Below are positions 5,072 to 28,062 of a stretch of 64,000 nt of DNA, in pieces. The notes under the pieces were generated by a model. That model ran no database searches. It saw nothing but the letters and a program-made list of their open reading frames with translations, and was not told the origin of the DNA. Within the stretch, counting starts at the first letter, position 1; each line of letters begins with the position of its first letter. The position numbers and the translations under genes are program-made. The DNA is taken from positions 1 through 64,000 of the forward strand of contig JAJEHX010000001.1 of NCBI GenBank assembly GCA_022823465.1, in the 5' to 3' direction. The stretch comes from Candidatus Latescibacterota bacterium. GTDB lineage: Bacteria; JAAXHH01.

Positions 5072-5363
5072 TTACGGCCGGTTATCAGGAATTCGATTCA
5101 GCCCGTCCGGGCAAGAAAATACCCCACACAGGCGAGCATAAGTATTTTTAGGAGAACCTGTTCGGAACAGTGGTTGTCCCCCCGGGCAGTTCTGACGTCC
5201 TCCAATCTGGTGAGGCATGCCATCGATACCCGGAGCAGGATTCCCTATGGTATAGCAAAGGTTCTTTTAAAATGACTTTGCTGGAAACCTGTGTGAGGTA
5301 ACGACCATTATACCCGATTGGGGACGGGCGTGCAAGTGTTTTTGATTTGCCATGGGATTGACG
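5072..5363. other. Intergenic region between convergent genes
   Basis: The LRR-protease gene and the minus-strand exported protein converge here. A short GCCC/GGGC hairpin lies near 5102-5113 but has no T-run, so it is not a convincing terminator. No open frame with a ribosome binding site is visible. Confidence 0.4.
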
Positions 5364-6620
5364 TCAGGTTTTGCGCTTCTTCTTCTTTGCCGCGGGGAAG
5401 AGGACGTTGTTCAGGATCAGCCGGTAACCCGGGGAGTTCTTGTGGAGGGCGAGATTGGTCGGCGGGTCGCCCACAAGGTGTTCCTCGTCCTCGGGATCAT
5501 GTCCTCCGTAGAAGGTGAAAGTCCCCCTCCCGTAGTTGCCGTGGATGTACTTGACGTGGTCGGTCCCGGCCTCCTCGGCGAGGACGACCACGGTGCGCTT
5601 GAGCACGTCGCGGTGGAAGGAAGTGGACAGGCCGTAGAAGCCGGCGATGTAGTTCACGTGGCTCTGCGTGAGCATGGTGGGGACCGGGTCGTACTTGGCG
5701 GAGAAATCAAAGAGGGTGAAGGGCCCGGTCGGCACCTTGCCGGCGTTGACCTGGTTCACGTCGATGTCGGAAAAGGAACCGATGAGCGGGTTCAGCTGCA
5801 GCGTGAAGTTCTCGAAGGCGAAAGTCTGGCCGAAGTCCAACTTGGACTGTGCGTCGGGATCGATGGGGGTGTGATCGTACTCCGGCGCCACGATGTCCGT
5901 GCGGGCCGAAGCCAGGGCGATCTCCAGGGTCTCTGTCGCCGCGCACATGGCAAAGAGGAAGCCGCCGTTCCCCACGTAGGACCTGATGCCCTGCGCCACG
6001 GCTTTCTTGGCCTCTGCGACCGTCGGATACCCGAGGGTCCTTGCCAGCGTTTCGTCCGTGGCCTGCTGCTGCTGGTACCAGGGCGTGCGGTGATAGCTGT
6101 AGAACTTGCTGTACTGGCCGGTGAAGTCCTCGTGGTGCAGGTGCAGCCAGTCGTATTCCTTCAATGCTCCGGTCAGCACCTCTTCGTCGAAAATGGTCTC
6201 GTAGGGCACCTCGGCGTACTCCAGCGCCATGGTCACCGCATCGTCCCAGGGACGCTTGTCGGGCCGGGTGTACACGGCGATCCCGGGCGCTTTCTCCAAC
6301 AGCACCCGGTCCATGTTGTTTTCCTCGACATGGGCGTAGATCCGGACCAGTTCCGCGCCGTCGATCACTTTGAAGCTCACGCCCCTCAGGTAGCAGGCCC
6401 GCACCCGGTCCGCCGCGGGGTCCATGATGAAGGACCCGCCGCGGTAGTTCAGCAGCCATTCGACCGTGTGTCCCTGCTCCAGGGCCTGGAAGGCGATTCC
6501 GTAGGCCTTGAGGTGGTCCTGCTGCTCCAGGTCCATGAAGATCAGCATCTTCTGGGCGCTGGCGGCAGGCGCCGAAAGGAGGAACAGAAACGTGACGATG
6601 GGGAGGATGAATCGACGCAT
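5364..6620 (-). CDS. Exported protein of a family often labelled asparagine synthetase B
   Basis: 418 residues with a clear Sec signal peptide (hydrophobic residues 4-17, cleavage after ASA or AQ near residue 22). The mature protein opens with KMLIFMDLEQQDHLKAYGIA and contains RGGSF, WLHLHHED, GGFLFAMCAATETLEIA and GRGTFTFYGGHDPED. I recognise this as a conserved secreted family that automatic pipelines call asparagine synthetase B. It lacks the N-terminal catalytic cysteine and synthetase domain of AsnB. The CAATE segment and the layout look more like a glutamine-amidotransferase-like fold, so the real function is unknown. The C terminus is very basic (AAKKKKRKT). The nearest purine-rich stretch before the ATG is AAGAAAAG, a weak ribosome site. 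Confidence 0.7.
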   Translation of the reverse strand: MRRFILPIVTFLFLLSAPAASAQKMLIFMDLEQQDHLKAYGIAFQALEQGHTVEWLLNYRGGSFIMDPAADRVRACYLRGVSFKVIDGAELVRIYAHVEENNMDRVLLEKAPGIAVYTRPDKRPWDDAVTMALEYAEVPYETIFDEEVLTGALKEYDWLHLHHEDFTGQYSKFYSYHRTPWYQQQQATDETLARTLGYPTVAEAKKAVAQGIRSYVGNGGFLFAMCAATETLEIALASARTDIVAPEYDHTPIDPDAQSKLDFGQTFAFENFTLQLNPLIGSFSDIDVNQVNAGKVPTGPFTLFDFSAKYDPVPTMLTQSHVNYIAGFYGLSTSFHRDVLKRTVVVLAEEAGTDHVKYIHGNYGRGTFTFYGGHDPEDEEHLVGDPPTNLALHKNSPGYRLILNNVLFPAAKKKKRKT

Positions 6621-13770: not shown

Positions 13771-16119
13771 CTACGCTTCGCTCGGCCGGATCAAGCGGTA
13801 ACCAACTCCGCGCACGTTTGAGATGTAGGACGGATCGGCCGCGTTGTCGCCGAGCTTTCGCCGCAGGCGCTTGACGATGGCGCGCACGAGCCTCGCGTCG
13901 CCCAGGCCCCGCCTGCCCCAGATCTCGCGCAGGAGGGCGTCATAGGTGGCGACCCGTCCCATGCGGAGCGAGAGCACGCGCAGCACATCGTACTCGGTCG
14001 CCGTCAGCGCCACGGACCGACCGCCGAGCGTGACCTCGCGGCGGTCGTAGTCGATGACCAGGTCGCCAAGCACGAAACGTTCGGGATTAGCCCGCCGTCG
14101 CAGGATCGCCCCGATTCGCGCCGTAAGCTCGGTCGGCGAGAACGGCTTGACGATGTAATCCTCGGCGCCGGCCTCCAGGGCCCGTGCGATCGTCTCGTCG
14201 CGGCCGTAACCCGATATGAAGATGACCGGCAGTGTGGCAAGCTCGGGGACAGTCTGCATAAGCTCGATTCCGTCCGTGTCGGGCAGCACGAGGTCGAGCA
14301 GGACCAGTTTGGGCTTTTCTGTTTCGATTATGTGCGAAAGTTCGTTGTGTTCAGCCGTGACCAGCACGGAGTAGCCCGCATCGGCGAGGGTGTCGCGTAC
14401 GTACCGAAGCGCTTGAGGGTCGTCGTCCACAACGAGAATGGGCGTCAGCTGGCGTCCGCCGGCAGGCGGTCCGGACGGGCGTTGGGCATCCCCGGCCGCG
14501 GCGTCTTCACCGGCCACTTCCGCAACGGGAATCGTGAAGGTGAAGCACGTTCCCTGGCCCAGTCCCGCGCTCTCGGCCCGGATACGCCCACCGTGCGCCT
14601 CGACCAGCCCCTTGCAGATGGATAGACCCAACCCTCCGGTCTTACCCGATTCTTTTTCGGTGCGGACGTATTTTTGAAACAGCCTTCCGAGAAGCTCAGG
14701 TTCAATACCACGTCCTTCGTCGGATACCGCGATTGCGACATGCACCCCGTCGCGTTTCGCCGAGATACGGATGGGAGCGGTTTCCGGCGAATGGTGGGCT
14801 GCGTTGGCCAGGAGGTTGTACACCACCTGTACGAGACGCTGTCTGTCGGCCAGAACTCTGGGCAGGTTGGACGGCAGATCGATCTGGATGGTGTGTCTGC
14901 TGCCGCCGGAGAGAAAAGTGTTGCGTGCCCGGTCCACCAGGACGCCGACGTCCGAGGGCTCCGGATGGACCGACAGCGTGCCGGCGTCGATGTGTCCCGC
15001 ATCGAGCAGGTCGCTTATCAGGCTGTCCATGAGGTTGGCCTGCTCGTTGATAATATGGAAAAACTGCCGGATTTCCGCGGGATCCAGCGCCCTGGAGGCG
15101 TCCAGCACCGTCGCCGCCGAACCTTTGATGGAGGTCAGTGGCGCGCGCAGTTCATGGCTCACCATACCGAGGAACTCGGCCCTTGTCCGTTCCAGATCCA
15201 GGACCGGCGCCATATCCTGCATGGTGACCACCAGCGACGCGACCGAGCCGTCTTCGCCGCGGATAGGGGTGGCGTTGACGAGTAACGTTATGCTGCGGCC
15301 GTCGGGTACGGAAAGCACGACCTCCTCGGCCCGAACCGTCTCGGCGCCGCCGAGCACCTGTACCAGCGAGCACTTGTCCAGCATGATTTCGCGTCCGTCG
15401 GCGAAGCGGCAGGTCACCGCCTCTGGCGTGGCCTCCAGTGGCCGGCCCGGCATGCGCAGACTTTCCAGTATCCGCTTCGCCTCCCGGTTCAGCGACGCCG
15501 GATCGCCGGTGCCTGCGTCGAGTACGACGACGCCAATCGGGGAGGTCTCGACCAGTGCCTCCAGGTCGGCCCTCGCGCGTTGCTCGATACGGTGCGCACG
15601 CGCGTTGACGATCGCTGTCGCCGCCGGCAAGGCAAACTGCACAAGGACCTCCTCGTCGTCGTCCGTGAACTCCTCCCCATTCTCCTTCCCGACCAGATAG
15701 AAGTTGCCGACGTGCACGTCGCGGTTTCGCATTGGCGTGCCTTGGAAGGTCCCGACAGGCAGCCGGTCGGTGGAAAAGCCAAGCATGCGCACGTATTCGG
15801 ACAGGTCCGCGAGCCTCATTGGTCCCTGTTGATCCCGGAAGTGCTCAAAGAGACGCAGCCCGTCGGACCACTCCGTCAGGCGGCGGTGTTCGAGCTCGGT
15901 GAGGCCGGAAGTGACGAAATCCTGGGGAGCGCCCGCTTCGTCAATGGTGACGATGGCGCCATAGCGCGCCCCGGTGAGGGCCCTGGCGCTCTCCGCAATC
16001 TCATTGAGCGCGGTCTCCAGGTCCAGGCTCGCGCTGATGCGAAGGCTCGCTGTACTAAGCGCGGAGTTGCGCGCACGCAGTACCTCAATCTCGCGTCTCG
16101 GGTCATCGTATACACTCAA
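13771..16119 (-). CDS. Soluble hybrid histidine kinase fused to a response regulator with OmpR-type winged helix
   Basis: 782 residues in one chain. They comprise a GAF domain (about 20-180), a PAS-like domain (190-305), HisKA with H322 in MVSHELRAPLTS, and HATPase_c with the N, G1 and G2 boxes (NLLANAAHH, DEGRGIEPE, GGLGLSICKGL). A receiver follows at 559-672 with phospho-acceptor D609 and the acidic VVDDD patch, then a winged-helix DNA-binding domain at 683-778 (TATEYDVLRVL, RGVGYRLI). There is no transmembrane segment, so both the sensed signal and the output are cytoplasmic. The start is TTG at 16119, 8 bases after AGGAGG. A 12-bp palindrome lies 22 bases upstream. The architecture allows signal sensing, phosphotransfer and promoter binding by a single protein. 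Regulated genes are unknown. Confidence 0.93.
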   Translation of the reverse strand: MSVYDDPRREIEVLRARNSALSTASLRISASLDLETALNEIAESARALTGARYGAIVTIDEAGAPQDFVTSGLTELEHRRLTEWSDGLRLFEHFRDQQGPMRLADLSEYVRMLGFSTDRLPVGTFQGTPMRNRDVHVGNFYLVGKENGEEFTDDDEEVLVQFALPAATAIVNARAHRIEQRARADLEALVETSPIGVVVLDAGTGDPASLNREAKRILESLRMPGRPLEATPEAVTCRFADGREIMLDKCSLVQVLGGAETVRAEEVVLSVPDGRSITLLVNATPIRGEDGSVASLVVTMQDMAPVLDLERTRAEFLGMVSHELRAPLTSIKGSAATVLDASRALDPAEIRQFFHIINEQANLMDSLISDLLDAGHIDAGTLSVHPEPSDVGVLVDRARNTFLSGGSRHTIQIDLPSNLPRVLADRQRLVQVVYNLLANAAHHSPETAPIRISAKRDGVHVAIAVSDEGRGIEPELLGRLFQKYVRTEKESGKTGGLGLSICKGLVEAHGGRIRAESAGLGQGTCFTFTIPVAEVAGEDAAAGDAQRPSGPPAGGRQLTPILVVDDDPQALRYVRDTLADAGYSVLVTAEHNELSHIIETEKPKLVLLDLVLPDTDGIELMQTVPELATLPVIFISGYGRDETIARALEAGAEDYIVKPFSPTELTARIGAILRRRANPERFVLGDLVIDYDRREVTLGGRSVALTATEYDVLRVLSLRMGRVATYDALLREIWGRRGLGDARLVRAIVKRLRRKLGDNAADPSYISNVRGVGYRLIRPSEA

Positions 16120-16589
16120 TTCTCCATCCTCCTACAATACGCACACGTGTGCATATTGCTCAATTCATCCGCAAAGACAGACGACAGACCGACCGCTCGG
16201 CGGATTAGATTCATTCCGGGCCGTCCGCGAAGAACCCGGCTACCCAGATGTCTCGCTGGACGGCGCGAAATCGCGCAGTTATCTTCTTATATTGTTTTTG
16301 TATACGTTTTTAGCACACAAATCTTGATATTTCCTCAATCCTGTTGTTTTTCTGTATTCGGAACCTCTGCCTGAATCAACCTGCCAACCTGCCAGGCCAG
16401 CGGACAACACTGCCCATGGTAAATGTCCCGGCGGCCTGCGTCTCAGGTTGAACCGCCACGCACCGGACACCATGACAGCGTCCGGCAACCGTACAGCGCC
16501 GGATTTCGCGTCATTTAACGGCTTGTGATCCGGTGTGCCCGGTTGTAAAATGGTATGTTGGCCGGCAACATCGCCCGGGGTTGAGTACC
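16120..16589. other. Divergent intergenic region
   Basis: 470 bases between the sensor kinase and the large exported protein. It contains the palindrome at 16141-16152 and an AT-rich tract with T-runs around 16275-16355 that could hold promoters for either strand. I could not fix a -35/-10 pair and see no supported coding sequence. Confidence 0.4.
16141..16152. promoter_or_regulatory. Palindromic operator candidate (GCACACGTGTGC)
   Basis: A perfect 12-bp palindrome, extending to 18 bp with a single mismatched pair. It sits just upstream of the AGGAGG and TTG start of the kinase-regulator fusion. Its position suits autoregulation, which is inferred only. Confidence 0.4.
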
Positions 16590-19265
16590 ATGCGTATAAA
16601 ACTGTTTATCTGCCTTATTGTCTTTCTGGCGCCGTACCAATCCTCAAGCGCACGGCCGGAGAGTCCGCAAGCGGCGATCACTAAGCAAAGGGGCACGGAG
16701 CAATCGCCTGTGCGCCAGGAGGCCGCTGGCGCGGCACCGAGTGCGCTGGTCGCTGAGCGCGCGCCTCGTGCGCCCGCCCGCCAGGAGGCCGCCGCTCGCC
16801 AGAACGGCAGCCCACGCCTGCTCGTCGTAGACTACGCCATGGCTTATGCGGAAGAGAACACCCGGGTGATCCGGGCGTTCTCGGAAGCCGGTTTCGACGT
16901 CGATTACCGGCCGTATTATCCGGCCATGGTGGAACGGGACGCCGGTGGCTACGACGTCATCTTGCTGCTGGGCGGCGGCGATCCCGGCATGAGCATCCAG
17001 GAAGTGGATCTGGCCATCAACTTCGTTTCGAGGGGGAAAGTGCTTGTTTTGGCGATGCCGGCCGACGGTCCCTACGGTGAACGGCGAAAGGTCAATCCCG
17101 GTGTACACGACCGGTACCAGTTCAATGAGGTCCTGGCCCGCCTGAACATCAACCTGCACGCCCTGAACGCCGACCATGAAACCAGTCCCGTCCTGAATCC
17201 CGTGGTATACTTCGAACCCGCCGTCGGCCATCCGGTCGCACGGAGCCTGGAAGGGACTGTGGCCGCCCGGGCCGGCACCCGCCTGCTTGTGGGCGCCGGG
17301 GCCATGCCGCTGCTCGTGGAGCCGGAAGTGCCTGAGGAGGAACTCGAAGAGGCGCCGCCGCCTGAAGAAGAACCCGAGTACCGTATCGTCCGGCGCACCC
17401 TGCGCATCCAGCCCACCGACGCCATCGCCGGGGAAGATGTCGAACTGCTGTTACGCGGAAACCAGGAACTGCGGGCCAGCCTGTACTACCGGAACAGGGA
17501 ACGCCCCGCGCCGTCGGACTGGAACACAGCGAGGTTCAAGGGCAGAGTTGAAGGCGTTTCAGAAGCGAAAGACACGTTGACCGTACGCATGCCCGGAAAC
17601 CGATGGGGATCCGATTACGCGTTGGTCGGCGTTCCGGTGAAGGTCATCGCCGCCGCTTTCGCCGACCGGGAGATTAGGGAAGAGATCCGGTCCGAGGCGG
17701 ATCTCGAGTCCATGCGGGGCGACGAGGAGACCTTCGGCCGCATGGCGGTAGCGGCCGTGGGACGGACCGGCCGGCTGAACAAGGGATTCGTCCTGGCCGT
17801 TGACCGCCAGGCACTTACCGGCCTTGACCGGCCCCTGCCGCCTCTCGGCATCGGTCCCGTGGACCCGGGTCTCGAAGGGCTGGAAGGCTTTCTGGAGGGA
17901 CTCGCGCGGTACGTCCGTACGCTGGCCGATTTCCCCGGGGAATGGTCCCCCGACCACGACTATCCCACGGCCCAGATGCCAGGAAACCGGAAACCGGATA
18001 TCTCCCTCAACAACATTTCCATTCTGACGGTAGTGCCCGAACGGGTCCGGGTGATCGGCCGCGCGGCGTCCGGTCTCGATGCCGGTACGGTCACCGGCTC
18101 GATCGCCAGCCCGGGTGCAAACGCGGGTTCAGGTCCCGAACCGGGTTCGAACACTGGCTCCAGTCCAGGTCGAGGCACCCAAACGGATGCGGGTCTCGCT
18201 TCCGGCACGGCGGACGTCGCTCCACTTCGGGGCGTTTGGGATTTCGTCGCCCGCCGGCATGAACATGTAGCCGATCTCGCCGGCATGCTACCGGGCCTCG
18301 GGATGGATTTCCTGTGGACCGTGGCCCCGGCCGCCAGTTACACCGGGGGTACCGCGATTACGGGCGACGTGCGTTTCGAATCGTGGGCTTTGCCCATTTT
18401 CAACCGCCTGGGCAGTACGCCCACTGCCTGGTACGCTGGTATCAGCGCCCCTCGCGAGCGCGAGATCGCCGGCGCCTACACGGCCGCCCGTGACGCCCGT
18501 GGGGACGCCGTGGGGCTGCCCTCGCGACTGGACATGGCCTACCTGAACCGCCATCTCTTCGAACCTGCCCGCGCCATCGCCCGGTACAGCCGCGGCCGGG
18601 GGACCCTGCAGGCCATTGTGCACGACTGGGAACCCCATATCGCGCGGCCACTGGAAGCCTATGCCGCGACCGACGCATTCGACGACCTGCATTTCCGGTA
18701 CTTCATCCGCCATCTCGTCCGAAACGGGCTGTACCACGGCGAAGAATTCAAGTCGCTCATGGGGCTGGACCGGAAAAACCGGTTCGAGTGGCTGCTGAAG
18801 TCGGGATACCTCGAGACCTACATCCAACTCCAGGAAACCAACGCCGAACGCCTCGGCACACTGTATCGGAAGTCCATGGACGAGATCAACCCCGGACTGC
18901 GCCACGGCGCCTTCGTCCGTTCCCCGCGGCCGAACTGGTTTCACCTGGGCTTCTGGCGCGGCGCCGGCACGCCGGCACGCCCCTTTCTCGTGTTCTCCTA
19001 CGAACGGCCGCCGCCCTGGTACGCGCAGTTTCTCCGGGGGAAGGGCATATCAGCCCGTGTGATCCCCGTCGGACTGCTGGGGCTGATTGGCGACGCGGAT
19101 ATGGTGGATCTCCTCCAAAAGGCCTCCGATCAGGGCGGCTACGCCCTGGAGCGCGGCATATGGCTCGTCGCCGACCCTGGTGACGAATCGGAGTTGAACA
19201 CGCCTCCCGGGGGCATGTCGCGGGAAGCGCTGCTGGAGGCGATTCGGAAGGTGGTTGGGGAGTAG
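16590..19265 (+). CDS. Large exported protein of unknown function
   Basis: 891 residues from ATG 16590, which begins directly with a signal peptide (MRIKLFICLIVFLAP, cleavage near SSA). Residues about 65-250 look like a GATase/DUF4350-type alpha/beta domain (RLLVVDYAMAY, YDVILLLGGGDPGM, GKVLVLAMPADGPYGER). An acidic Pro/Glu stretch and a beta-rich segment follow. A Gly/Ser/Pro linker of about 40 residues lies near residue 510. The C-terminal 350 residues, with TVAPAASYTGGTAIT, DVRFESWALPIF and HDWEPHIARP, could be a TIM-barrel hydrolase-like domain. I do not recognise the full-length family. It is followed by its own terminator. A role in periplasmic or extracellular polymer handling is a guess. 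Confidence 0.75.
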   Translation: MRIKLFICLIVFLAPYQSSSARPESPQAAITKQRGTEQSPVRQEAAGAAPSALVAERAPRAPARQEAAARQNGSPRLLVVDYAMAYAEENTRVIRAFSEAGFDVDYRPYYPAMVERDAGGYDVILLLGGGDPGMSIQEVDLAINFVSRGKVLVLAMPADGPYGERRKVNPGVHDRYQFNEVLARLNINLHALNADHETSPVLNPVVYFEPAVGHPVARSLEGTVAARAGTRLLVGAGAMPLLVEPEVPEEELEEAPPPEEEPEYRIVRRTLRIQPTDAIAGEDVELLLRGNQELRASLYYRNRERPAPSDWNTARFKGRVEGVSEAKDTLTVRMPGNRWGSDYALVGVPVKVIAAAFADREIREEIRSEADLESMRGDEETFGRMAVAAVGRTGRLNKGFVLAVDRQALTGLDRPLPPLGIGPVDPGLEGLEGFLEGLARYVRTLADFPGEWSPDHDYPTAQMPGNRKPDISLNNISILTVVPERVRVIGRAASGLDAGTVTGSIASPGANAGSGPEPGSNTGSSPGRGTQTDAGLASGTADVAPLRGVWDFVARRHEHVADLAGMLPGLGMDFLWTVAPAASYTGGTAITGDVRFESWALPIFNRLGSTPTAWYAGISAPREREIAGAYTAARDARGDAVGLPSRLDMAYLNRHLFEPARAIARYSRGRGTLQAIVHDWEPHIARPLEAYAATDAFDDLHFRYFIRHLVRNGLYHGEEFKSLMGLDRKNRFEWLLKSGYLETYIQLQETNAERLGTLYRKSMDEINPGLRHGAFVRSPRPNWFHLGFWRGAGTPARPFLVFSYERPPPWYAQFLRGKGISARVIPVGLLGLIGDADMVDLLQKASDQGGYALERGIWLVADPGDESELNTPPGGMSREALLEAIRKVVGE

Positions 19266-19343
19266 GGGCGAAGCGGAGAAGACTAAACTTGAATCTGGGA
19301 TAAAGAGCGTCTTTTAAAACAACATCAGCAGCCAGCAATGTGG

Positions 19344-19375
19344 AACGCCCGGTGGTTCGATCACCGGGCGTTTTT
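19344..19375 (+). terminator. Rho-independent terminator
   Basis: Perfect 11-bp stem AACGCCCGGTG / CACCGGGCGTT with a 7-base loop, running into TTTTT. It lies 78 bases after the stop of the large exported protein and isolates it from the peptide operon downstream. Confidence 0.85.
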
Positions 19376-19706
19376 GTATTGGGTCGATAAATAAAGATTA
19401 TGCGCGAGATACTTGAGGTCGCTTAGACTAATCCTTTCAGACCGCGCGGCAGTTGATGGATTCAATTTTAACATTAGGTCGAGTCCCCGTTTTCAAATCG
19501 ACGCTTACTCTCGGAACTGCGCACTCCGAGATTCGCAAACCGAGTTCCCTGGTACCTGAGCAGAGAATGAGGCCTGTATCGAAGATGAACGGCGGATGGA
19601 ATCTGATTCGAAAGAGGAAAGGAGGTTAACGGCAAAATAAACAAGACATTCGAAGAATAAACCGCACAAGTCCGACTAAACCAGAAATCGAGGAGTATTG
19701 ATCATC
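19376..19706 (+). promoter_or_regulatory. Leader/promoter region of the peptide operon
   Basis: 331 bases between the terminator and the peptide start, noticeably AT-richer than the DNA before it. It contains a CTCGGA/TCCGAG hairpin at 19510-19530. A competing pairing exists between GGAACT (19513-19518) and AGTTCC (19543-19548), and an orphan AAAGGAGG lies at 19618-19625. A long structured 5' leader is plausible; no confident -35/-10 pair was found. Confidence 0.4.
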
Positions 19707-19991
19707 ATGAAAAAACTCATTCTCTCCGTGTTTATGTTCGCCCTGATCGCGGGCGTGGGTGTCACCACCTCGGCCTCCGCGCCGGATGTGGAGTCTCCGA
19801 ACATCGTGGCGACACCGAATATCGCATACTGTCTGTGGGGTTCCAGTATAGCCCTCAATTCAGGTTATGTTTTCGGTGGCGCAGGTTTCGGAGTAGCAGG
19901 TGGCTGGGCGGTAGCCGCCGGATACGGCCTAGCGGCCACCCTGGGCATAGCTTCGGGAGTAGGTGCTGCGTTTCTTGCTGCCGGGGTATAA
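19707..19991 (+). CDS. Secreted hydrophobic, charge-free peptide precursor (bacteriocin-like)
   Basis: 94 residues. ATG at 19707 follows AGGAG at 19691-19695 by 11 bases. Residues 1-25 form a Sec-type leader (MKKLILSVF, cleavage after ASA). A short acidic linker (PDVESPN) follows. From residue 30 to 94 there is no D, E, K, R or H. This region is rich in Gly, Ala, Val and aromatic residues (YVFGGAGFGVAGGWAVAAGY) with one cysteine at 42. The composition resembles the mature part of circular bacteriocins and of Gly/Ala-rich class II microcins. The next genes (DUF95, Yip1, M48, MFP, MacB) suit maturation, export and immunity. A structural surface peptide is the main alternative. Function is inferred from composition and neighbourhood. 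Confidence 0.7.
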   Translation: MKKLILSVFMFALIAGVGVTTSASAPDVESPNIVATPNIAYCLWGSSIALNSGYVFGGAGFGVAGGWAVAAGYGLAATLGIASGVGAAFLAAGV

Positions 19992-20001
19992 GTAAGCCGG
20001 A

Positions 20002-20035
20002 GCGAAGGATGAAGGCTCATGCCTTCATCCTTCGC
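20002..20035 (+). terminator. Terminator-like/attenuating hairpin between peptide and export genes
   Basis: Perfect 15-bp stem (GCGAAGGATGAAGGC and its complement) with a TCAT loop, 10 bases after the peptide stop. It is followed by GATATATATAA, not a T-run. It probably works as a partial attenuator or 3' RNA stabiliser, giving more peptide than downstream proteins. It also contains a spurious upstream ATG for the next gene. Confidence 0.65.
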
Positions 20036-20060
20036 GATATATATAAGGACCGTGCATATC

Positions 20061-20642
20061 GTGAACGCTGCATCCGTGCGCTTGGCGAACAAGCTTCCTT
20101 TCCTGCTGTCTATTTGTTCCGTACTTATCGGAATGGGTATTGGCGCCATGATCCACCTTGGCCCCGAGGAGGACGGAGTAAATCCCGTGCGGTCTTCTCC
20201 ACTATATGCTAATACCCGACCACTGTTGGAAGATGGAGACGAAATGAGATTCATTTTGAGTACCAATTTACTCGTTTCCTGCAAAATGCTCTTGGGACTC
20301 ATAACCTGTGGGATGATCAGCATCGTTATGCTGATGTGGACAGGCATGAACATTTCATGGGCTGTGCAATCGGCACTGGAATCCGGTATTCCGTTGAATA
20401 CCGTAGCGGCTCTGATATTGCCGCATGGCATTATTGAACTGGCGGGATTCTTATTTTTCGGTTCGACAGGCTGCGAGGGGTTGTTACTGGTCTTCCGCAA
20501 ACTGAAATATGACGAGTGGCAGGTCGATTCGAGCAGGTTAAACCTGAATATCTGCCGTGTACTTGCAGGTTTCTTTTTGATTTCTTTCGCGTCTGTATTG
20601 GAGACTTTCGTCACTGGCCTGGTTTCGGCCAAATTCAACTGA
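20061..20642 (+). CDS. SpoIIM/DUF95 family membrane protein
   Basis: 193 residues from GTG 20061 (AAGGA at 20045-20049). An in-frame ATG at 20019 lies inside the hairpin and is rejected as start. There are four to five membrane segments. The family signature is clear: FILSTNLLVSCKMLLGLITCG, then VAALILPHGIIELAGFLFFG, and a final ISFASVLETFVTGL helix. SpoIIM/DUF95 proteins are a constant part of circular-bacteriocin loci, where they are implicated in maturation and self-protection. Here it directly follows a hydrophobic leader peptide, which supports that role. Developmental (sporulation) function is unlikely in this setting. Confidence 0.85.
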   Translation: MNAASVRLANKLPFLLSICSVLIGMGIGAMIHLGPEEDGVNPVRSSPLYANTRPLLEDGDEMRFILSTNLLVSCKMLLGLITCGMISIVMLMWTGMNISWAVQSALESGIPLNTVAALILPHGIIELAGFLFFGSTGCEGLLLVFRKLKYDEWQVDSSRLNLNICRVLAGFFLISFASVLETFVTGLVSAKFN

Positions 20643-20653
20643 ACGGGTCGAAC

Positions 20654-21289
20654 ATGAAAAGACACATGCGGATCTTTGAAAGGTTCTCATCAATCAGTAC
20701 GGCCGAGTCTATATGGATGGGCATCGGCGTGTTTGCCACTTACTTGGTTTCGAACGGTCTGGTGTTGTTCTTGGTGTTCAGCGTAATCAATGAGCACCTA
20801 CCGGATCATCTTTCAGGTTTATTTACGCAGGTGTTCCCTGTTCTGTACATCAGCATGGCAATGGGAGCCACACTAGGGGAGATCGTTACCTTTGTCCTTG
20901 GATGGTTATTCACTATTATCGCCGTAGCGCTGCTGAACGGTAAGCGGCAACATCGTGCTCTGTTCGGATGGCTAGGTATTGGATATCTCCCGGTCGCATT
21001 GTATTCGGTATTAGCATTTGTATTCATTCTGCTTTATTCCGACCAGATGGTCCCTGCCGGAGTGTCGAACATGTCCACAATCGAACAGCTGCCTGTTGAA
21101 ATAACGAAGATGCAAAATACCGGATGGTTCCAGTGGATACGATATGGACGATATATTGCATTAGTTCTGGTTGTCATATTCGCGATCGAAGTGGTGCACA
21201 GGGTCTGCGTGCTGTGCAGGTACAAGGCAATCGGGGTGTTACTGGTTTATGTCGTCCTTAACGTTTTCATACACGTGATCATTGCATAA
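20654..21289 (+). CDS. Yip1-like polytopic membrane protein
   Basis: 211 residues from ATG 20654, 11 bases after the DUF95 stop. About five hydrophobic segments are visible: two in the N-terminal half and the others around LFGWLGIGYLPVALYSVLAFVFILL, YIALVLVVIFAI and the C terminus. The pattern of a soluble N-terminal stub, LGWLFTIIAVALLNGKRQHRAL, then GYLP fits bacterial Yip1-domain proteins. The match is by pattern only. It is likely co-transcribed with its neighbours and may be an immunity or assembly component. Confidence 0.65.
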   Translation: MKRHMRIFERFSSISTAESIWMGIGVFATYLVSNGLVLFLVFSVINEHLPDHLSGLFTQVFPVLYISMAMGATLGEIVTFVLGWLFTIIAVALLNGKRQHRALFGWLGIGYLPVALYSVLAFVFILLYSDQMVPAGVSNMSTIEQLPVEITKMQNTGWFQWIRYGRYIALVLVVIFAIEVVHRVCVLCRYKAIGVLLVYVVLNVFIHVIIA

Positions 21290-21312
21290 GTCTGATAGGA
21301 TGGGAGTTTTCA

Positions 21313-22236
21313 GTGTGTGTTTCTACGTTCAGGCCAGACCAGAGAGTCGATCGTGCTGAGGATAAAGCGATCCGGTTGTCATGGCGGGAAAAGCTGGTAG
21401 AGGTCGGACTGCACATGGGCCTGGTGATGTCGGGTTTGTTGATTACCGTTGTCGTTTACTTCGGTTTACTGATCATAGCGTATGATGCAGTCGATACGAT
21501 CGTACCCGGCTTTTGGGTGGATTCATCTCTAAAGTTATTGGCTCTTGCAATTGTATCCGCCTGTATCGGTAATACATGCGCGTTTTGTTGCTTCCCCTAT
21601 CTGATACGACTGATCTTTCGAGGATATGAACTAAGGGACGTTCGCCTGGACCGCTCGGTGAGGAAACTTGTAACGGCGACAGGAATGAACATCATGGCAG
21701 AAAAGCTGTATGCTATAAAAGGAAAAACGGCGAACGCGGTTGTTTCAGGACTGTTTCGCAAATCACGGCACGTATTCTTTACGAACAAGATATTGGAGAA
21801 AATGACCGAAGAAGAAATCATCGCAATTTTTGCCCACGAACTGGCTCACGCAAAACACCGGCATATTCCTAAGATGTTGTTCGCTGTCATGCTATGGATA
21901 TGCGCATTCCAGACCTTCATGTATTTGATAGGCTTTAACCAATACTTCAATGAGATTGCTGAGTCCGTGAAGATGTGGGTTGCCGGGTTGATTACCTATT
22001 TACATGTATTGCTGATGATGTTCTTGGTTCTATTCCCCCTATCGAGAAGAAATGAGTATGAAGCGGATGCAACCGCAGCGACTTGGGTCGGCGTTGAGTG
22101 TTATAAAAGCGCCCTCCACCGCCTGTACCAGTTGAATGACAAATTAAAGCCACCTCCGGGATATTCGAAAGTACTTCAAACCCATCCCACCCTGCAAAAC
22201 CGTCTCGACCGCTTATCACGTTTGGACTCGAAATAG
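21313..22236 (+). CDS. M48 family membrane zinc metalloprotease
   Basis: 307 residues. GTG at 21313 follows GGGAG at 6 bases. Two N-terminal membrane helices (about 32-60 and 72-95) precede a conserved cytosolic stretch (YLIRLIFRGYELRD, LYAIKGKTANAVVSGLFRK). The active site HELAHAKHRH has zinc ligands H175 and H179 and catalytic E176. The third ligand is E248 in NEYEAD. Two further hydrophobic segments lie between them. HtpX/Ste24-type M48 enzymes cut membrane-bound substrates. In this operon the most attractive substrate is the leader of the hydrophobic peptide; quality control is the alternative. A close paralogue sits at 26765-27721 on the opposite strand. Confidence 0.9.
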   Translation: MCVSTFRPDQRVDRAEDKAIRLSWREKLVEVGLHMGLVMSGLLITVVVYFGLLIIAYDAVDTIVPGFWVDSSLKLLALAIVSACIGNTCAFCCFPYLIRLIFRGYELRDVRLDRSVRKLVTATGMNIMAEKLYAIKGKTANAVVSGLFRKSRHVFFTNKILEKMTEEEIIAIFAHELAHAKHRHIPKMLFAVMLWICAFQTFMYLIGFNQYFNEIAESVKMWVAGLITYLHVLLMMFLVLFPLSRRNEYEADATAATWVGVECYKSALHRLYQLNDKLKPPPGYSKVLQTHPTLQNRLDRLSRLDSK

Positions 22237-22256
22237 GTGCACCACATGCAGTTGGA

Positions 22257-23477
22257 ATGGATATGAAACCAATGAAGTTGGTTCGACTTGTCATAGTGCT
22301 GCTGACCCTCAGCGCGCTGACTGACCTACGCTTCGCTTCGTACGGAGCGTTGCCGGACTCCCTTGCGCTGTCCGAATTCGCCAGGATCATAACTGCTTTC
22401 TCGGAAGAAGCGGGCCACTTTCCAGGCGACAACTTCGTTACAAATGAAACGTCCTATCTGCACGTAGTTCCGACGGTAATCGAGCTGGGCAAACGTGGAG
22501 GTGTCTATATCGGTGTCGGAACCGAACAGAATTTCTCCTACATTGCCGCCACAAGGCCTGAGATCGTTTTTATCGTCGACATCCGTCGCAAGAACCTGCT
22601 TCAGCATCTGCTCTACAAAGCCCTGTTTGCCCTGGCCCGGGACCGCACGTCTTTCCTGATGCTGCTGTTCAGCAGACAGAATCTGGAAGGCGGATCGGCT
22701 TCGAACGAAGTACCGGAAAATACAGCCTCCGTTACGGAAGTCCTGGATTACATCGAATCGTCAACCTCGGCCGACTCACAGCTTTTCGAGCTGAACTGGA
22801 AGCGGCTGAAACGAGAAGTAAGACGATACGGGATCGTAGACCGGGAAGATCTCGAAAGGATGCTTTACATATACCGATCGTTTTACGAAAAGCAACTTTC
22901 GATCCGATACGCCGAAACACGACTCGGAAACGGCTTATCATATCCTACGTTCAAGGACCTGATGACCAGCACGACGATAGAAGGAGAATTCGCCGGTTTC
23001 CTAAGCACGGATACAAAATTCGAATTCGTTAGAGACCTGCATCTCAGAAATCTGATCATTCCCGTCGTGGGCGACTTCGCGGGCGAGAAGACGTTGAGAG
23101 CCATCGCCTCATTCGCTGAAGCTCACGATACGAGTATATCCGTTCTCTATGTGTCGAACGTAGAGTATTTCCTCATAAATCACTTCTACTACATATTCAA
23201 ATGGTACGTCGCGAATGTCGATGCGCTTCCGATCGATGAACACAGCCTCATGATTCGCTCATACCTTGGCGTGGAATCCCACCCCAAGCGGGTCGGCCGG
23301 CATATGTCCACAAGTACGGTACATCACATCAGTACGTTCCTGGAGCGTTTTCGCCAGGGTGCGTATACCCGTTCGAAACCGATCTGGTGGAGGTTCTGGC
23401 CCTGGGACAGGCCATTCTGGTCGGGAGGCGGACACAGTTACTACCATCTGGTCATTATGGGAGACCTATGCCCTTGA
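22257..23477 (+). CDS. Exported Rossmann-like protein of unknown function
   Basis: 406 residues from ATG 22257. An in-frame ATG at 22263 fits the TTGGA upstream slightly better. A signal peptide is visible (KLVRLVIVLLTLSALTDL). The core reads GGVYIGVGTEQNFSYIA, then VFIVDIRRKNLLQHLLYKALF, a pattern like motifs I and II of SAM-binding folds. A second block is PVVGDFAGEKTLRAI with YVSNVEYFL. I remember this as a conserved uncharacterised bacterial family with no assigned activity. Finding an exported member inside the peptide cluster is unusual. The C terminus is rich in tryptophan (WWRFWPWDRPFW). The gene overlaps the next by 10 bases. Confidence 0.7.
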   Translation: MDMKPMKLVRLVIVLLTLSALTDLRFASYGALPDSLALSEFARIITAFSEEAGHFPGDNFVTNETSYLHVVPTVIELGKRGGVYIGVGTEQNFSYIAATRPEIVFIVDIRRKNLLQHLLYKALFALARDRTSFLMLLFSRQNLEGGSASNEVPENTASVTEVLDYIESSTSADSQLFELNWKRLKREVRRYGIVDREDLERMLYIYRSFYEKQLSIRYAETRLGNGLSYPTFKDLMTSTTIEGEFAGFLSTDTKFEFVRDLHLRNLIIPVVGDFAGEKTLRAIASFAEAHDTSISVLYVSNVEYFLINHFYYIFKWYVANVDALPIDEHSLMIRSYLGVESHPKRVGRHMSTSTVHHISTFLERFRQGAYTRSKPIWWRFWPWDRPFWSGGGHSYYHLVIMGDLCP

Positions 23478-24199
23478 ACGCTACTACAGACATGAGAAGT
23501 TATCCCACCCGATGGCTAAGGGTCCTGTACAATCCCAGGAAGGCATATGCAGAGCTTGAAACCGAACATTCTGCCACTGAGTGGATACTGATTCTGATCG
23601 TTGTCATGTCGATCGTCCTTTGTGCCGGGATAATAACTTTACCAGTTGCGCTGAACACAGAACGGGAACTGATCGAAACAGAACTCCGGTCGTATTCGAG
23701 TCTAAATACAGTTCAGCAATCTGTCATTCTGCGCGAGGCGTCGAAACTCGACCATCGACAACTCGTCGGTCTTCTGATCATGCCGGCCAGCGTCTGCTTT
23801 CTGATTGTTGCGTGGTCGGTAGTTGGAAAACACTGCGGCGAGATGATATTCGGCAAGCTTTTGCCGTACGACAGGGTCCTTTCGATTACTGGCTATGCCT
23901 CGCTTGTCCTCGTACCCGAAACAGTCGTCAAGACCATACTGGTTTTGCTTTACGGGTCGCTTGATCCTGCCATCCATCCAGGCGTGTTTCTCGATGATAC
24001 ATACCTCGAAACCCTGCCAGGGATATTCCTGTCAGGTGTAGACTTTTTCGGTATCTGGTTTCTTTACCTGCTGGGGCTCGGCCTGGCTCAAACTTTCCGG
24101 GGATCATCTACGTTCACCTGGCTCGTGCTGGGACTTGTATGGTGTGCGTGGATTGTCATTCGCAGGACCATGGAGATTATCGGTACTGTTTACGTGTAG
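23468..24199 (+). CDS. Yip1-domain membrane protein
   Basis: 243 residues. ATG at 23468 lies inside the end of the preceding gene after GGGAGA, indicating translational coupling. The N terminus WLRVLYNPRKAYAEL is the typical soluble lead-in of bacterial Yip1 proteins. Five membrane segments follow, with SVVGKHCGEMIFGKLLPYDRVLSITGYASLVLVPE and a final WLVLGLVWCAWIVI. It sits directly before the adaptor and permease, so an accessory or protective role in export is plausible. It is the second Yip1-like protein of the operon and more typical of the family than the first. Confidence 0.8.
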   Translation: MPLNATTDMRSYPTRWLRVLYNPRKAYAELETEHSATEWILILIVVMSIVLCAGIITLPVALNTERELIETELRSYSSLNTVQQSVILREASKLDHRQLVGLLIMPASVCFLIVAWSVVGKHCGEMIFGKLLPYDRVLSITGYASLVLVPETVVKTILVLLYGSLDPAIHPGVFLDDTYLETLPGIFLSGVDFFGIWFLYLLGLGLAQTFRGSSTFTWLVLGLVWCAWIVIRRTMEIIGTVYV

Positions 24200-24220
24200 A
24201 ACGAGGGCATCATCGCACTC

Positions 24221-25435
24221 ATGAAAAAAGGGATAGTCATTGCCTGTGTATCGGTCTGTAGCCTCTGTGCCGTATTGCTGTACTTCTTATACGGTTCCAC
24301 AGATCGGACGGTCTCGTATCGAACTCACCAGGTCCGCCACGGCCCGATCTCCGACGTCCTGACGGAAACAGGCACGATCCAGTACGTCAGGACCGTCATG
24401 GTCAAACCTACGGTATCCGGGGAAGTCAGACATCTTCACGCCGATGTCGGGGATCGAATCGCAGAGGGGGAAGTACTTGCCGTGATAGAGCCGGATCCGT
24501 CTCAGTCCCTTCAGCTGTCCCGGCAACGCGCCAGGGTTGACGGTGCCCGAATAGATCTTTCAGAGCAGGAAATGACCTTTGAGAGAAAGCGTAAACTGTA
24601 TGAGGGATCCCTGATTTCGTCTGAGGAATTCGACAGGGCAAGGATTGAGAACACCAGGGCCCATCACAATCTCAATATGGCGGAGCTTGAACTCAGGATA
24701 TTGGAATTGAAGGTGAATGTCGAGGTGGACTCGAACAAAACCCATGGTGCCGTAAGGGTCCTGTCCCCGTTGACCGGTATCGTCATTGCTCGCATGGTGG
24801 AGACGGGTGAGGTCGTTGCGTCGGGTACTTCTTCGTATACCGGCGGTACGGAGATGTTCCGCATTGGCGATCCGGGCAGAATGATTGTCAGATCGGCCAT
24901 TGGAGAAATAGACGCGGGACGGGTCAGGCCGGGGCAGGAGGTGCGGATTCGTGTCGATGCCTACCCGGATGCAATGTACAGTGGGCGTGTTGAACGGGTG
25001 GCGCCGGTCGGAGTGCGAAAACCCGGGAGTACGCTTGTCACGTTCGATACCGAAATCGTGATCTCGAATCCATCGCTGGAGTTACAACAGGGAATGTCCT
25101 GTGATATCGACATCGTGGTGGAGAAGAATGACAGTTCGGTGCTGGTTCCCGCTTCTTCAGTCATGGAATTGGATGTTTACAAGGATATGATCACTGAACG
25201 GAAGGATCCGGCATTGACTGGACAGGTACCCGGCAAGCGACACATCGTCTATCGATGTAACTCAGTGGAATCTGAAAGGTCCACATGTTCGGCAGCGTAT
25301 CTGGAATCGTCCCTGGTCGAGATCGGTATTGAATCTGCCGAAAACGTGGAGATCCTGTCCGGTATTGTACCCGGCGTTCACATTGCGCTGGATGCAAGAG
25401 CGGTCTTTTCCGCGCTGAATTCAAAACACCGGTAG
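24221..25435 (+). CDS. MacA/HlyD-type periplasmic adaptor protein
   Basis: 404 residues with one N-terminal membrane anchor (residues 4-23). The first half-lipoyl motif is VMVKPTVSGEVRHLHADVGD followed by GEVLAVIEPD. A coiled-coil hairpin spans about residues 90-165. The second lipoyl half is VRVLSPLTGIVIARMVETGE, and a beta-barrel region (RIRVDAYPDAMYSGRVERV) follows. This is the layout of adaptor subunits that couple a MacB-type permease to an outer-membrane channel or outer-leaflet substrate. No outer-membrane TolC-like gene is present nearby. It is 34 bases from the permease gene. In AS-48-type loci an HlyD-like protein occupies the same relative position. Confidence 0.9.
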   Translation: MKKGIVIACVSVCSLCAVLLYFLYGSTDRTVSYRTHQVRHGPISDVLTETGTIQYVRTVMVKPTVSGEVRHLHADVGDRIAEGEVLAVIEPDPSQSLQLSRQRARVDGARIDLSEQEMTFERKRKLYEGSLISSEEFDRARIENTRAHHNLNMAELELRILELKVNVEVDSNKTHGAVRVLSPLTGIVIARMVETGEVVASGTSSYTGGTEMFRIGDPGRMIVRSAIGEIDAGRVRPGQEVRIRVDAYPDAMYSGRVERVAPVGVRKPGSTLVTFDTEIVISNPSLELQQGMSCDIDIVVEKNDSSVLVPASSVMELDVYKDMITERKDPALTGQVPGKRHIVYRCNSVESERSTCSAAYLESSLVEIGIESAENVEILSGIVPGVHIALDARAVFSALNSKHR

Positions 25436-25469
25436 TCCGCTGATTGCAAAATTGTCGGATCCGAGGGTT

Positions 25470-26693
25470 ATGTCGATAACGCACCATATTCATACGGTGA
25501 TCACCAATCTCTTTCATTACAGGCTGCGTTCAGTCCTGACGTTACTGGGCATTGCGGTCGGCATAGGCGCCGTAACGGGAATCCTCTCGATTGGCGAAGG
25601 GCTTCACGGCATGGTGATGAAGGAATTCGAATCCGTGCGCGGCGGCACCATGGTATGGGTGAGTCCATCAAGATTCGTAAACCGGGAAGGGCGTTGGACC
25701 GCGGTATCGGATTACGAACATCTCCTTTGGCAGGATATGCTGGAAATCGGGAGAAGATCGAACGCTGTCCGTCAACTGGTCCCTGCCGCGACATTGAATG
25801 CGGATCTCAGATACGCGAAAATGTCCTATGGCGGAATGTTGTACGGCACGACGCCTTTATTTCCGGATATGTACCAATGGTCGGTTTCAACGGGTCGGTT
25901 CATTATCGACCGTGACGTCGAACGATGGCGCAAAGTGTGCGTGCTGGGCGATGAGTTGGCCGCTAAACTGTTTGACGATACCACGCCGGTCGGCAAGGAG
26001 CTGAAATTGAATGGGCAGAGATTTGCCGTGATCGGTGTCATGCAGCCCAAGACCGTGTTCAATGAGAGCTGGGGGAATAGAGTATTCGTTCCGATTACAA
26101 CGGTCCAGAAACGGATGCTTGGGCATGAAGGCTTCGATCAATTGTCCATTAAGGTAGCGGATACGAGTATGATGGATAGTGCGGTGGATGACATTGAGGC
26201 GGCCTTGAAAGCAAACCATGGCGATGCGGCTGGATTTGACATAGTCAATGGCAAAAACGCCATGGATCAGATAGGCGACGTGATAAGCGCGGTTAAATCG
26301 TCGATTGCCGCCGTAGCGGGTATCTCTCTGATGGTGGGTGGAATCGGGATCATGAATATGATGCTGGTCTCCGTTACAGAACGGAGGCGGGAAATAGGGA
26401 TCAGGAAGTCAGTGGGGGCAAGACATGTCGACATCGTGAAGCAATTTACGCTGGAAGCCATAAGCATCAGTACGTTGGGAGGGCTGCTGGGGTTATCGCT
26501 GGGACTGGGTCTTGGTTCGGTTTTCTCCTTTGTCTTGAATCAGGCATGGAATCTCAGTTTCACGAGCGGAACGTCGGTATCCAATATCCTCATATCGCTG
26601 GCGATTTCACTGGCAATTGGTCTTTGTGCCGGTATTTATCCCGCTTTGAAGGCGTCGCAGTTGAGCCCGGTGGATGCGATGAACCAGGAGTGA
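25470..26693 (+). CDS. MacB-type ABC transporter permease (no ATPase domain)
   Basis: 407 residues from ATG 25470. TTG at 25452 is an alternative, and the ribosome site is weak for both. The first helix (LTLLGIAVGIGAVTGILSIGEG) is followed by a large MacB periplasmic domain of about 230 residues. Three C-terminal helices then form the FtsX fold (SLMVGGIGIMNMMLVSVTERRREIGIRKSVGA). The coupling-helix sequence ERRREIGIRKSVGA is intact, so it should bind a LolD/MacB-like ATPase. No Walker-motif protein is encoded in this cluster, so the ATPase must come from elsewhere. It likely exports or extracts the peptide or provides immunity. Confidence 0.9.
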   Translation: MSITHHIHTVITNLFHYRLRSVLTLLGIAVGIGAVTGILSIGEGLHGMVMKEFESVRGGTMVWVSPSRFVNREGRWTAVSDYEHLLWQDMLEIGRRSNAVRQLVPAATLNADLRYAKMSYGGMLYGTTPLFPDMYQWSVSTGRFIIDRDVERWRKVCVLGDELAAKLFDDTTPVGKELKLNGQRFAVIGVMQPKTVFNESWGNRVFVPITTVQKRMLGHEGFDQLSIKVADTSMMDSAVDDIEAALKANHGDAAGFDIVNGKNAMDQIGDVISAVKSSIAAVAGISLMVGGIGIMNMMLVSVTERRREIGIRKSVGARHVDIVKQFTLEAISISTLGGLLGLSLGLGLGSVFSFVLNQAWNLSFTSGTSVSNILISLAISLAIGLCAGIYPALKASQLSPVDAMNQE

Positions 26694-26764
26694 GTCCCGT
26701 ATGCCCGGCTCGTAATTTTCTTTCCGACACGGACAACCCGCCGAAAGTGCCAACAGAGCACCAT

Positions 26765-27721
26765 TCAAGCGTCCCCAACCCGCTCCAGCCGCTCCTGAAG
26801 CGTAGGATGCGTCCCCAGTTTCGCCAGGACCTTCCTCGGCGGTTTAAGTCGATCATTCAGTTGATGCAGCCGGTACAACGCTTGCTTATAGCAGTCAATA
26901 CCCACCCACCGGGCCGCGGTCGCGTCCGCCTGGTATTCGTGCCGTCTTGAAAGCGGAAACAAGACGAGGAGTACCAGCAGATAGAAGTTCACTGCGGTCA
27001 ATCCGCCACTCGCCCACATTTGCCAGTACTCGTCGATAGTCTGGAAATAGGCGTTAAGGGCGGTCAGCCGTATGAATACCTGGACCACGCACATCCATAG
27101 CAAGACGGCCAGCAACATCCTGGGCATGTGTTTGTGCTTCACGTGCGCCAGTTCGTGGGCGAGGATTGCCGAGATTTCTTCTTCATTCATTCTCTCCAGG
27201 AGCTTGTCGGTGAAAAAGATATACTGGGCCTTGCGAAACAGGCCGGACACGGCGGCGTTGGCCGTCCTGCCTTTTATGGCGTATATCTTTTCGGGCTTTA
27301 TGTCCATCCCGGTCACGGCTATCAAGCGTTTCAAAGCGCGGTCGATCCGCTCGTCCTTCAGCTCGTAGCCGCGGAAAATGAGTCGAATCAGGTAGGGAGC
27401 GCAGACGAACGAACAGGCATTGCCGATGGCCGCGCACAGGACGATCAGGACGACGAATGAAATTGAACCCGGCTCTGCAAATCCCGGAGCCAACTCGTCG
27501 AAGGCACTGTACATGATAAACAGAGAAGCTATGATTATGATCACCGCGATCAGCATGCCGCACACGATCATTGCCCCCATCAGGCCGGCTTCGACCAGCT
27601 TCTCGCGCCAGTTCAGCCGGATCACGTCATCATCGTCCCGCGTCACCGAGTCTGCGCTCGGTTCCTGGTTTCCTTGCGGTACCTGGTTTTCTAATGGATT
27701 GCCGTCCGTGGCATCATGCAA
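26765..27721 (-). CDS. M48 family membrane metalloprotease, paralogue of 21313-22236
   Basis: 318 residues. The start is TTG at 27721, 8 bases after GGAG; no ATG is available near the N terminus. Zinc site HELAHVKHKH has H189, E190 and H193, and the third ligand lies in the HEYQAD motif. The sequence is strongly similar to the operon's other M48 protein throughout (IRLxWREKLVEaGL, PYLIRLIFRGYEL, KIYAIKGRTANAAVSGLFRK). It has an extra hydrophilic N-terminal extension of about 30 residues (DDDD region). It is convergent with the permease gene and must have its own promoter. The two may process different substrates or different steps. Confidence 0.9.
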   Translation of the reverse strand: MHDATDGNPLENQVPQGNQEPSADSVTRDDDDVIRLNWREKLVEAGLMGAMIVCGMLIAVIIIIASLFIMYSAFDELAPGFAEPGSISFVVLIVLCAAIGNACSFVCAPYLIRLIFRGYELKDERIDRALKRLIAVTGMDIKPEKIYAIKGRTANAAVSGLFRKAQYIFFTDKLLERMNEEEISAILAHELAHVKHKHMPRMLLAVLLWMCVVQVFIRLTALNAYFQTIDEYWQMWASGGLTAVNFYLLVLLVLFPLSRRHEYQADATAARWVGIDCYKQALYRLHQLNDRLKPPRKVLAKLGTHPTLQERLERVGDA

Positions 27722-28062
27722 TTCGAGTACTCCGGTGTTCTGGTCAGACTGAATTCGTCGCGCGAAACCGCATCTGACTCCCTACCTTAGAAGCTCCGAA
27801 GTCCAGAACACAAGACGATCGCGAGCGAACCACAGAGATATGACGAGGTTTCGCGATATGTGAATCATCGGTACATAATAAATAGCATTTTACAACGCAC
27901 AACAAACGTTTGCAAGATCAATAATTGAACATGCATCAGTATCCATGTATATTCTACCCGAATCCCGCCTGCCGAAGCACCCATCCTGCTCTGCCTGAAA
28001 AACGGATGCCTGGTCGAACCGATCGATACGGAATACGGGATCGAGCCGTGGTGTGAGGTCAC
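27722..28062. other. Divergent intergenic region
   Basis: 341 bases between the minus-strand M48 gene and the small methyltransferase. AT-rich stretches near 27855-27955 probably carry promoters. No coding frame, convincing hairpin or operator was found. Confidence 0.35.

Follow-up and report, generated by a model that had tools for sequence, protein, structure and literature searches.

A probable circular-type bacteriocin system with an exchangeable core cassette in a Candidatus Latescibacterota bacterium

We identified a probable circular-type bacteriocin system in a member of the Latescibacterota, a phylum for which we found no such system described in the open-licence literature; Latescibacterota and bacteriocins come together there only in passing mentions, and an earlier description elsewhere is possible. 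In the window, by which we mean the whole stretch of 64,000 nucleotides that was analyzed, a short open reading frame (Table 1) can be read with moderate confidence as the precursor of a secreted, membrane-active, SpoIIM-associated (circular-type) bacteriocin that would be cut after Asn38. The core of this precursor is inherited together with the genes for SpoIIM, the membrane protein TM211 and the metalloprotease M48a as an exchangeable cassette, while the leader and the genes for DUF7790, Yip1, the periplasmic adaptor and the permease stay with the genome. To our knowledge, exchange of a core with these three genes behind a constant leader is undescribed for circular bacteriocins.

The cutting and ring closure of circular bacteriocins are an open question in the field, and the exchange of the cassette makes the roles of the SpoIIM and M48 proteins directly testable. 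Natural recombination amounts here to a pairing experiment, which separates the genes matched to one core (SpoIIM, TM211 and M48a) from DUF7790, Yip1, the adaptor and the permease, which go with whichever core is present. The host organisms are uncultured and, judging by how isolates are named and by published work on sponge Latescibacterota (PMC12993501), probably sponge-associated; the system would add a bacteriocin-like arms race to such bacteria.

The precursor, its leader and its core

Each of the 12 genomes of the genus carries, at the same location, an in-frame homologue of the precursor, the point on which the first-pass annotation of this DNA had made its reading depend, and the insertions and deletions among the copies are multiples of three. 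In a search of 96 genomes these 12 matched and none of the 84 others did so at the threshold used. A strongly diverged precursor in the same gene order was found below that threshold in G013, a genome from another genus of the same family; it retains the Pro-Asn-x-x-Tyr-Cys motif and otherwise only scattered leader positions. The pN/pS ratio is below 1 in the leader and in the core. The open reading frame is a real, conserved gene. All close relatives that carry it are metagenome-assembled genomes.

The same annotation had drawn attention to the lack of charged side chains in precursor residues 30-94, and this holds: D, E, K, R and H are all absent from these 65 residues, which form the longest uncharged run of the window when all six frames are scanned. 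An uncharged run of 64 occurs in the MacB-type permease encoded by the operon as well, so the precursor run is not extreme by itself and alone proves nothing. In full length the run occurs in the window and in only three of the 12 other genus copies. Each of the remaining cores includes at least one charged residue, some of them several, at net charges of -2 to +1, and the conserved trait is therefore the near-neutrality of the core, not a total absence of charge. The expectation that a neutral circular bacteriocin would be distinct has to be given up, as the circular bacteriocins of subgroup ii are already neutral (PMC8659200).

Leader and core differ in their rate of change. Mean identity among the genus copies is 81% in the leader (residues 1-38) versus 48% in the core, and within-clade pN/pS is 0.30-0.41 in the leader versus 0.62-0.89 in the core. 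The consensus at the border between them is (A/S/V/M)(T/S)PN or close to it; two hydrophobic residues come next, then Tyr (Leu in two copies) and Cys. The residue before the core is Asn in 13 of the 14 copies and Gln in one. Since the cassette breakpoint described below falls at codon 38/39, the position of the border is fixed independently of conservation. A 38-residue leader followed by a hydrophobic core of 56 residues in the window, and of 52-61 across copies, fits the leader and core of about 58-70 residues by which circular bacteriocins are recognized, with the cleavage itself a prediction. With its neutral core and border Asn the precursor agrees with subgroup ii (the gassericin type), in which the Asn at the cleavage site is conserved (PMC8659200).

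Conservation of Cys42 and of the end residues that ring closure would link had been proposed as a check, and the two gave opposite results. The cysteine is kept in 14 of 14 copies, eight of which have a second Cys, the window and five other copies having a single one. The ends are unconserved, with I, L or A as the first core residue and V, L, I, Y, A or M as the last. We rejected the idea that Cys42 marks a lipoprotein, because the residue directly ahead of it is Tyr or Leu, and neither is fit for a lipobox in that place.

Comparison of the core with AS-48, its Listeria relative, gassericin A and plantacyclin gave a best score of 25.0 bits, against a mean of 24.1 and a maximum of 28.5 for shuffled sequences. 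A likeness to AS-48 seen by eye in the cores of 90-residue precursors (AGGW and GGL stretches) was dropped for the same reason, composition shuffles reaching 28.5 bits. The bacteriocin models of Pfam and NCBIfam did not match the precursor, and a PDB sequence search with the precursor alignment found no similar solved structure. AlphaFold predicted helices for the whole precursor and for the core alone, both at low confidence (pLDDT 51 and 52).

One genome (G005) has two tandem precursors at locus L024, positions 5001-5279 and 5388-5669, with similar leaders and different cores; in one of the two, Gln replaces the Asn ahead of the core. The untranslated region upstream of the precursor in the window is conserved to an unusual degree between species and is perhaps a regulatory element. 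An inverted repeat in it, CTCGGA...TCCGAG, is retained in nearly all loci, and a AGGAAAGGAGG stretch lies roughly 70-80 nt ahead of the start codon; an Rfam search of the region returned no match. Just upstream, positions 16533-19265 encode a 910-residue protein that has no Pfam match, is 72-87% conserved in the genus and lies outside the exchanged cassette.

Table 1. Features of the precursor locus and its operon in the window
Feature	Position	Strand	Matches and remarks
Conserved untranslated region upstream of precursor, including GAGGAG ribosome-binding site	19440..19706	+	mean column identity 76% in an alignment of 11 loci
Precursor open reading frame	19707-19991	+	94 aa; start preceded at about 11 nt by a GAGGAG ribosome-binding site
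Precursor leader, residues 1-38	19707..19820	+	signal-like MKKLILSVFMFALIAG..., then a short linker with Thr-Pro-Asn end
Precursor core, residues 39-94 (56 aa)	19821..19991	+	IAYCLWGSS...AAGV; Gly/Ala-rich and neutral; fourth core residue an invariant Cys
SpoIIM (formerly DUF95) membrane protein	20019..20642	+	PF01944, E 4.8e-12; real start may be GTG 20061
TM211, membrane protein	20654..21289	+	unmatched in Pfam, NCBIfam and PHROG; travels with the core
M48a, HtpX-like zinc metalloprotease with HELAH	21313..22236	+	PF01435, E 3.9e-29; HExxH invariant
DUF7790 / LIC_10091-like protein	22257..23477	+	PF25046, E 1.3e-38; outside the exchanged cassette
Yip1 (YknW-like) membrane protein	23387..24199	+	PF04893, E 3.1e-10; YknW family, 7.1e-7; likely start near 23468
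HlyD/MacA-type periplasmic adaptor (YknX-like)	24221..25435	+	PF16576, E 2.5e-17; TIGR01730, 1.3e-33
MacB-type ABC permease (YknZ-like), no ATPase domain	25452..26693	+	PF12704, E 9.6e-40; PF02687, 1.2e-19
M48b, second M48 protease, convergent	26765..27721	-	PF01435, E 2e-29; outside the exchanged cassette

The operon and the exchange of its cassette

The operon has the order precursor, SpoIIM, TM211, M48a, DUF7790, Yip1, adaptor, permease, and this order is the same in every genome of the genus as far as the contigs reach. SpoIIM is a single-copy gene in the source genome; among 16 genomes of the phylum it is present in all 13 that have the precursor and in none of the three that lack it. At full length TM211 occurs, among 384 genomes, only in this genus and in G013, and the match outside the family is a weak, partial one to a 931-residue open frame of G205. 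M48a is found in every genome whose contig extends to it. It is 54% identical to M48b, and the two paralogues may differ in role, the M48b tree tracking the genome flanks rather than the core.

At locus L045 of G013 (contig C152) the operon consists of precursor through Yip1, with no adaptor or permease gene after these on the contig; the transporter half of the operon seems separable. DUF7790 (PF25046) occurs in several copies per genome in the phylum (for example on contigs C13 and C49 of G000). We tried it as a marker for similar clusters elsewhere, and it failed because genomes without the precursor also have multiple copies. PHROGs and PADLOC searches gave nothing useful. Over the operon the G+C content drops from about 0.65 to 0.46-0.55 (window positions 19000-28000), as is expected of horizontally acquired or exchanged DNA.

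Two loci from different species, L014 and L019, are mosaics whose leader and flanks belong with one lineage and whose cassette belongs with another. The proteins of L014 (G008) and L021 (G002) are 87-90% identical upstream and 87-91% identical from DUF7790 onward (DUF7790 and permease 90% each), but between these flanks identity is 35% in the core, 48% in SpoIIM, 50% in TM211 and 59% in M48a. At the DNA level the two loci share all 114 leader bases up to and including codon 38 (GCGACGCCGAAC), diverge from codon 39 and exceed 90% identity again about 2500 bases past the start codon, where M48a is close to its end. The pair L020/L021, misregistered in the DNA comparison, is left out of account. 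For L019 (G007) and L015 (G011) the corresponding protein identities are 92 and 83% upstream, 97% in the leader, 29% in the core, 47% in both SpoIIM and TM211 and 67% in M48a, followed by 88-90% past the cassette (DUF7790 88%). The L019 cassette is 71-96% like those of L018 and L023, and the DUF7790 proteins of L014 and L020 are 92% identical.

Trees of SpoIIM, TM211 and M48a each split the 94-type from the 90-type and reject the grouping of the upstream gene (AU p of 3e-85, 2e-40 and 4e-62, respectively), and the upstream gene in turn rejects the cassette (94-type) grouping (p of 1e-38); these AU values, like those that follow, are descriptive, the tree groups having been named after the identities had been seen. 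The downstream genes reject a group of the window with L014 (p of 5e-9), as does M48b (p of 6e-5), and a broader downstream test with all 94-type rows was not significant (p of 0.12).

The simplest reading of these patterns, drawn from loci that are metagenome assemblies, is that homologous recombination between shared flanks swaps the core, SpoIIM, TM211 and M48a together. The metagenomic origin of the loci and the position of the junctions, which adjoin conserved sequence, would also suit an assembly artefact, in which L014 and L019 are chimeric contigs joined in conserved stretches and the peptide gene is nonetheless real. We regard such an artefact as highly improbable. The two cases come from different assemblies, and either one would call for a pair of matching joins. 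At the protein level the L014 cassette is 22-65% different from all others compared, and the single-gene trees of the cassette agree.

Proposed function and alternative readings

The genes that travel with the core permit a guess at its immunity and processing partners. In the bacteriocin reading, the signal-like leader would bring the precursor to the inner membrane, and cleavage after Asn38 would release a 56-residue neutral, hydrophobic core whose ends are probably joined. Yip1, the adaptor and the MacB-type permease would export the core or keep it off the producer's membrane, in the manner of As-48EFGH and YknWXYZ; the As-48EFGH module serves self-immunity (PMC10598978). SpoIIM, TM211 and M48a would be specific to a single type of core and contribute to its immunity, its processing or both. 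According to a review, SpoIIM is present in every circular bacteriocin cluster, and the precursors of these share very little sequence (PMC6131525), and Yip1 in many clusters for head-to-tail cyclized bacteriocins (Major et al., PMC8659200). We saw no small open reading frame for a small cationic, hydrophobic immunity protein in the cluster, and SpoIIM or TM211 could serve in its place.

The operon, unlike the known circular bacteriocin clusters, contains no ATPase gene between or beside those for the adaptor and the MacB-type permease. Elsewhere in the genome there are YknY-like ATPases without an adjacent MacB-type permease, for instance at L079, which adjoins an adaptor gene, and at L081, which stands alone, and an ATPase encoded outside the operon may serve the permease in trans. 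Because the cluster lacks an ATPase and no sequence model matches the precursor, we do not file the system as a proven member of the circular bacteriocins, although it would work like one. The first-pass suggestion of a membrane-active peptide, possibly a circular bacteriocin, has gained from the gene context (SpoIIM/DUF95, Yip1, HlyD- and MacB-type genes, M48) and from the conserved Asn at the border, while circularization stays a prediction.

Surveyed circular bacteriocin clusters are mostly without a protease (PMC8534725, PMC8659200). Exchange with the core makes M48a a candidate for the enzyme that these clusters lack. We propose, tentatively and with considerable doubt, that M48a is a leader protease dedicated to this bacteriocin, that it perhaps closes the ring as well, and that it is exchanged with the core because it is matched to the core type. 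If this is true, M48a would be the long-missing processing enzyme of circular bacteriocins, and in a double-membraned phylum.

The Yip1/YknW, YknX-like and YknZ-like genes of the operon also recall Bacillus, where YknWXYZ exports the SDP toxin (PMC4887032). The peptide could accordingly be a linear, Sec-exported pore-former of the SDP kind, protected against by the YknWXZ-like proteins, with SpoIIM and TM211 as immunity proteins, unjoined ends and a cysteine engaged in a disulfide or a dimer. The leader, in which small residues stand around position 25, resembles a signal peptide, and the second Cys of eight of the 14 copies would suit a disulfide. In the window copy and the five others with a single Cys, however, an internal disulfide is impossible. 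Two features of the locus are typical of circular bacteriocins, the SpoIIM gene directly behind that of the precursor and the border Asn, and no SdpA-, SdpB- or SdpI-like gene was identified among the operon families. We consider an SDP-like toxin unlikely.

Still less probable are two readings in which the peptide has no antibacterial role. Peptide signalling systems, too, show a hypervariable product, a constant leader and co-inherited partner genes, and the variable product and co-inherited genes found here could belong to a secreted pheromone paired with its own receptor or processing genes. Against this, the exchanged cassette holds neither a sensor kinase nor a cytoplasmic receptor, the neighbouring hybrid kinase (13771-16119) tracks the flank and not the core, and the product is long, hydrophobic and membrane-like; we give the idea little credence. 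A hydrophobic, Gly/Ala-rich peptide predicted to be helical, albeit in low-confidence models, might otherwise be a small, non-toxic structural or envelope membrane protein served by its own membrane quality-control genes. A core that evolves fast behind a constant leader argues against such a protein, as does its being swapped together with SpoIIM, TM211 and M48a, a pattern of toxin and immunity and not of housekeeping, and we think a structural role very unlikely.

Comparison with known systems

Predicted circular bacteriocins come almost wholly from Firmicutes, with a few from Actinobacteria and Thermotogae (PMC8534725). For sponge Latescibacterota, RiPP-like antiSMASH hits have been reported, and no such system was named (PMC12993501).

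The cluster of enterocin AS-48 (subgroup i) on plasmid pPD1, whose sequence record we examined, contains precursor, SpoIIM, adaptor, ATPase and permease genes. Like the Latescibacterota operon, it has a signal-like leader of about 35 residues, a SpoIIM gene, and an adaptor and MacB-type permease (As-48F and H) that are preceded by a small membrane protein. Its core, in contrast, is 70 residues long and strongly cationic and has no detectable sequence similarity to the window core. The AS-48 cluster also has two ATPase genes and the large As-48B protein, lacks an M48 protease, and is plasmid-borne in a Gram-positive host.

Gassericin A, plantacyclin B21AG and paracyclicin (subgroup ii) resemble the present system in their neutral, hydrophobic core of about 58 residues, in the Asn followed by Ile at the core start, and in having SpoIIM next to or near the precursor. 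They differ in having an ATPase and permease without the Yip1-adaptor module and a core without Cys, and their similarity to the window core does not rise above that of shuffled sequences.

The Bacillus YknWXYZ system and its SDP toxin (PMC4887032) offer counterparts of YknW, the adaptor YknX and the permease YknZ beside a membrane-active peptide. Unlike that system, the Latescibacterota operon includes SpoIIM, and neither a YknY ATPase nor sdp processing genes were found in it. The group 1 clusters for head-to-tail cyclized bacteriocins that have an M48 zinc peptidase (PMC8659200) share SpoIIM and Yip1 with our operon and have the M48 gene, as here, three genes downstream of the precursor. 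Their producers are Firmicutes, and the peptidase occurs in two members only of the group, whereas here M48a is present wherever the contig extends to it and is exchanged together with the core.
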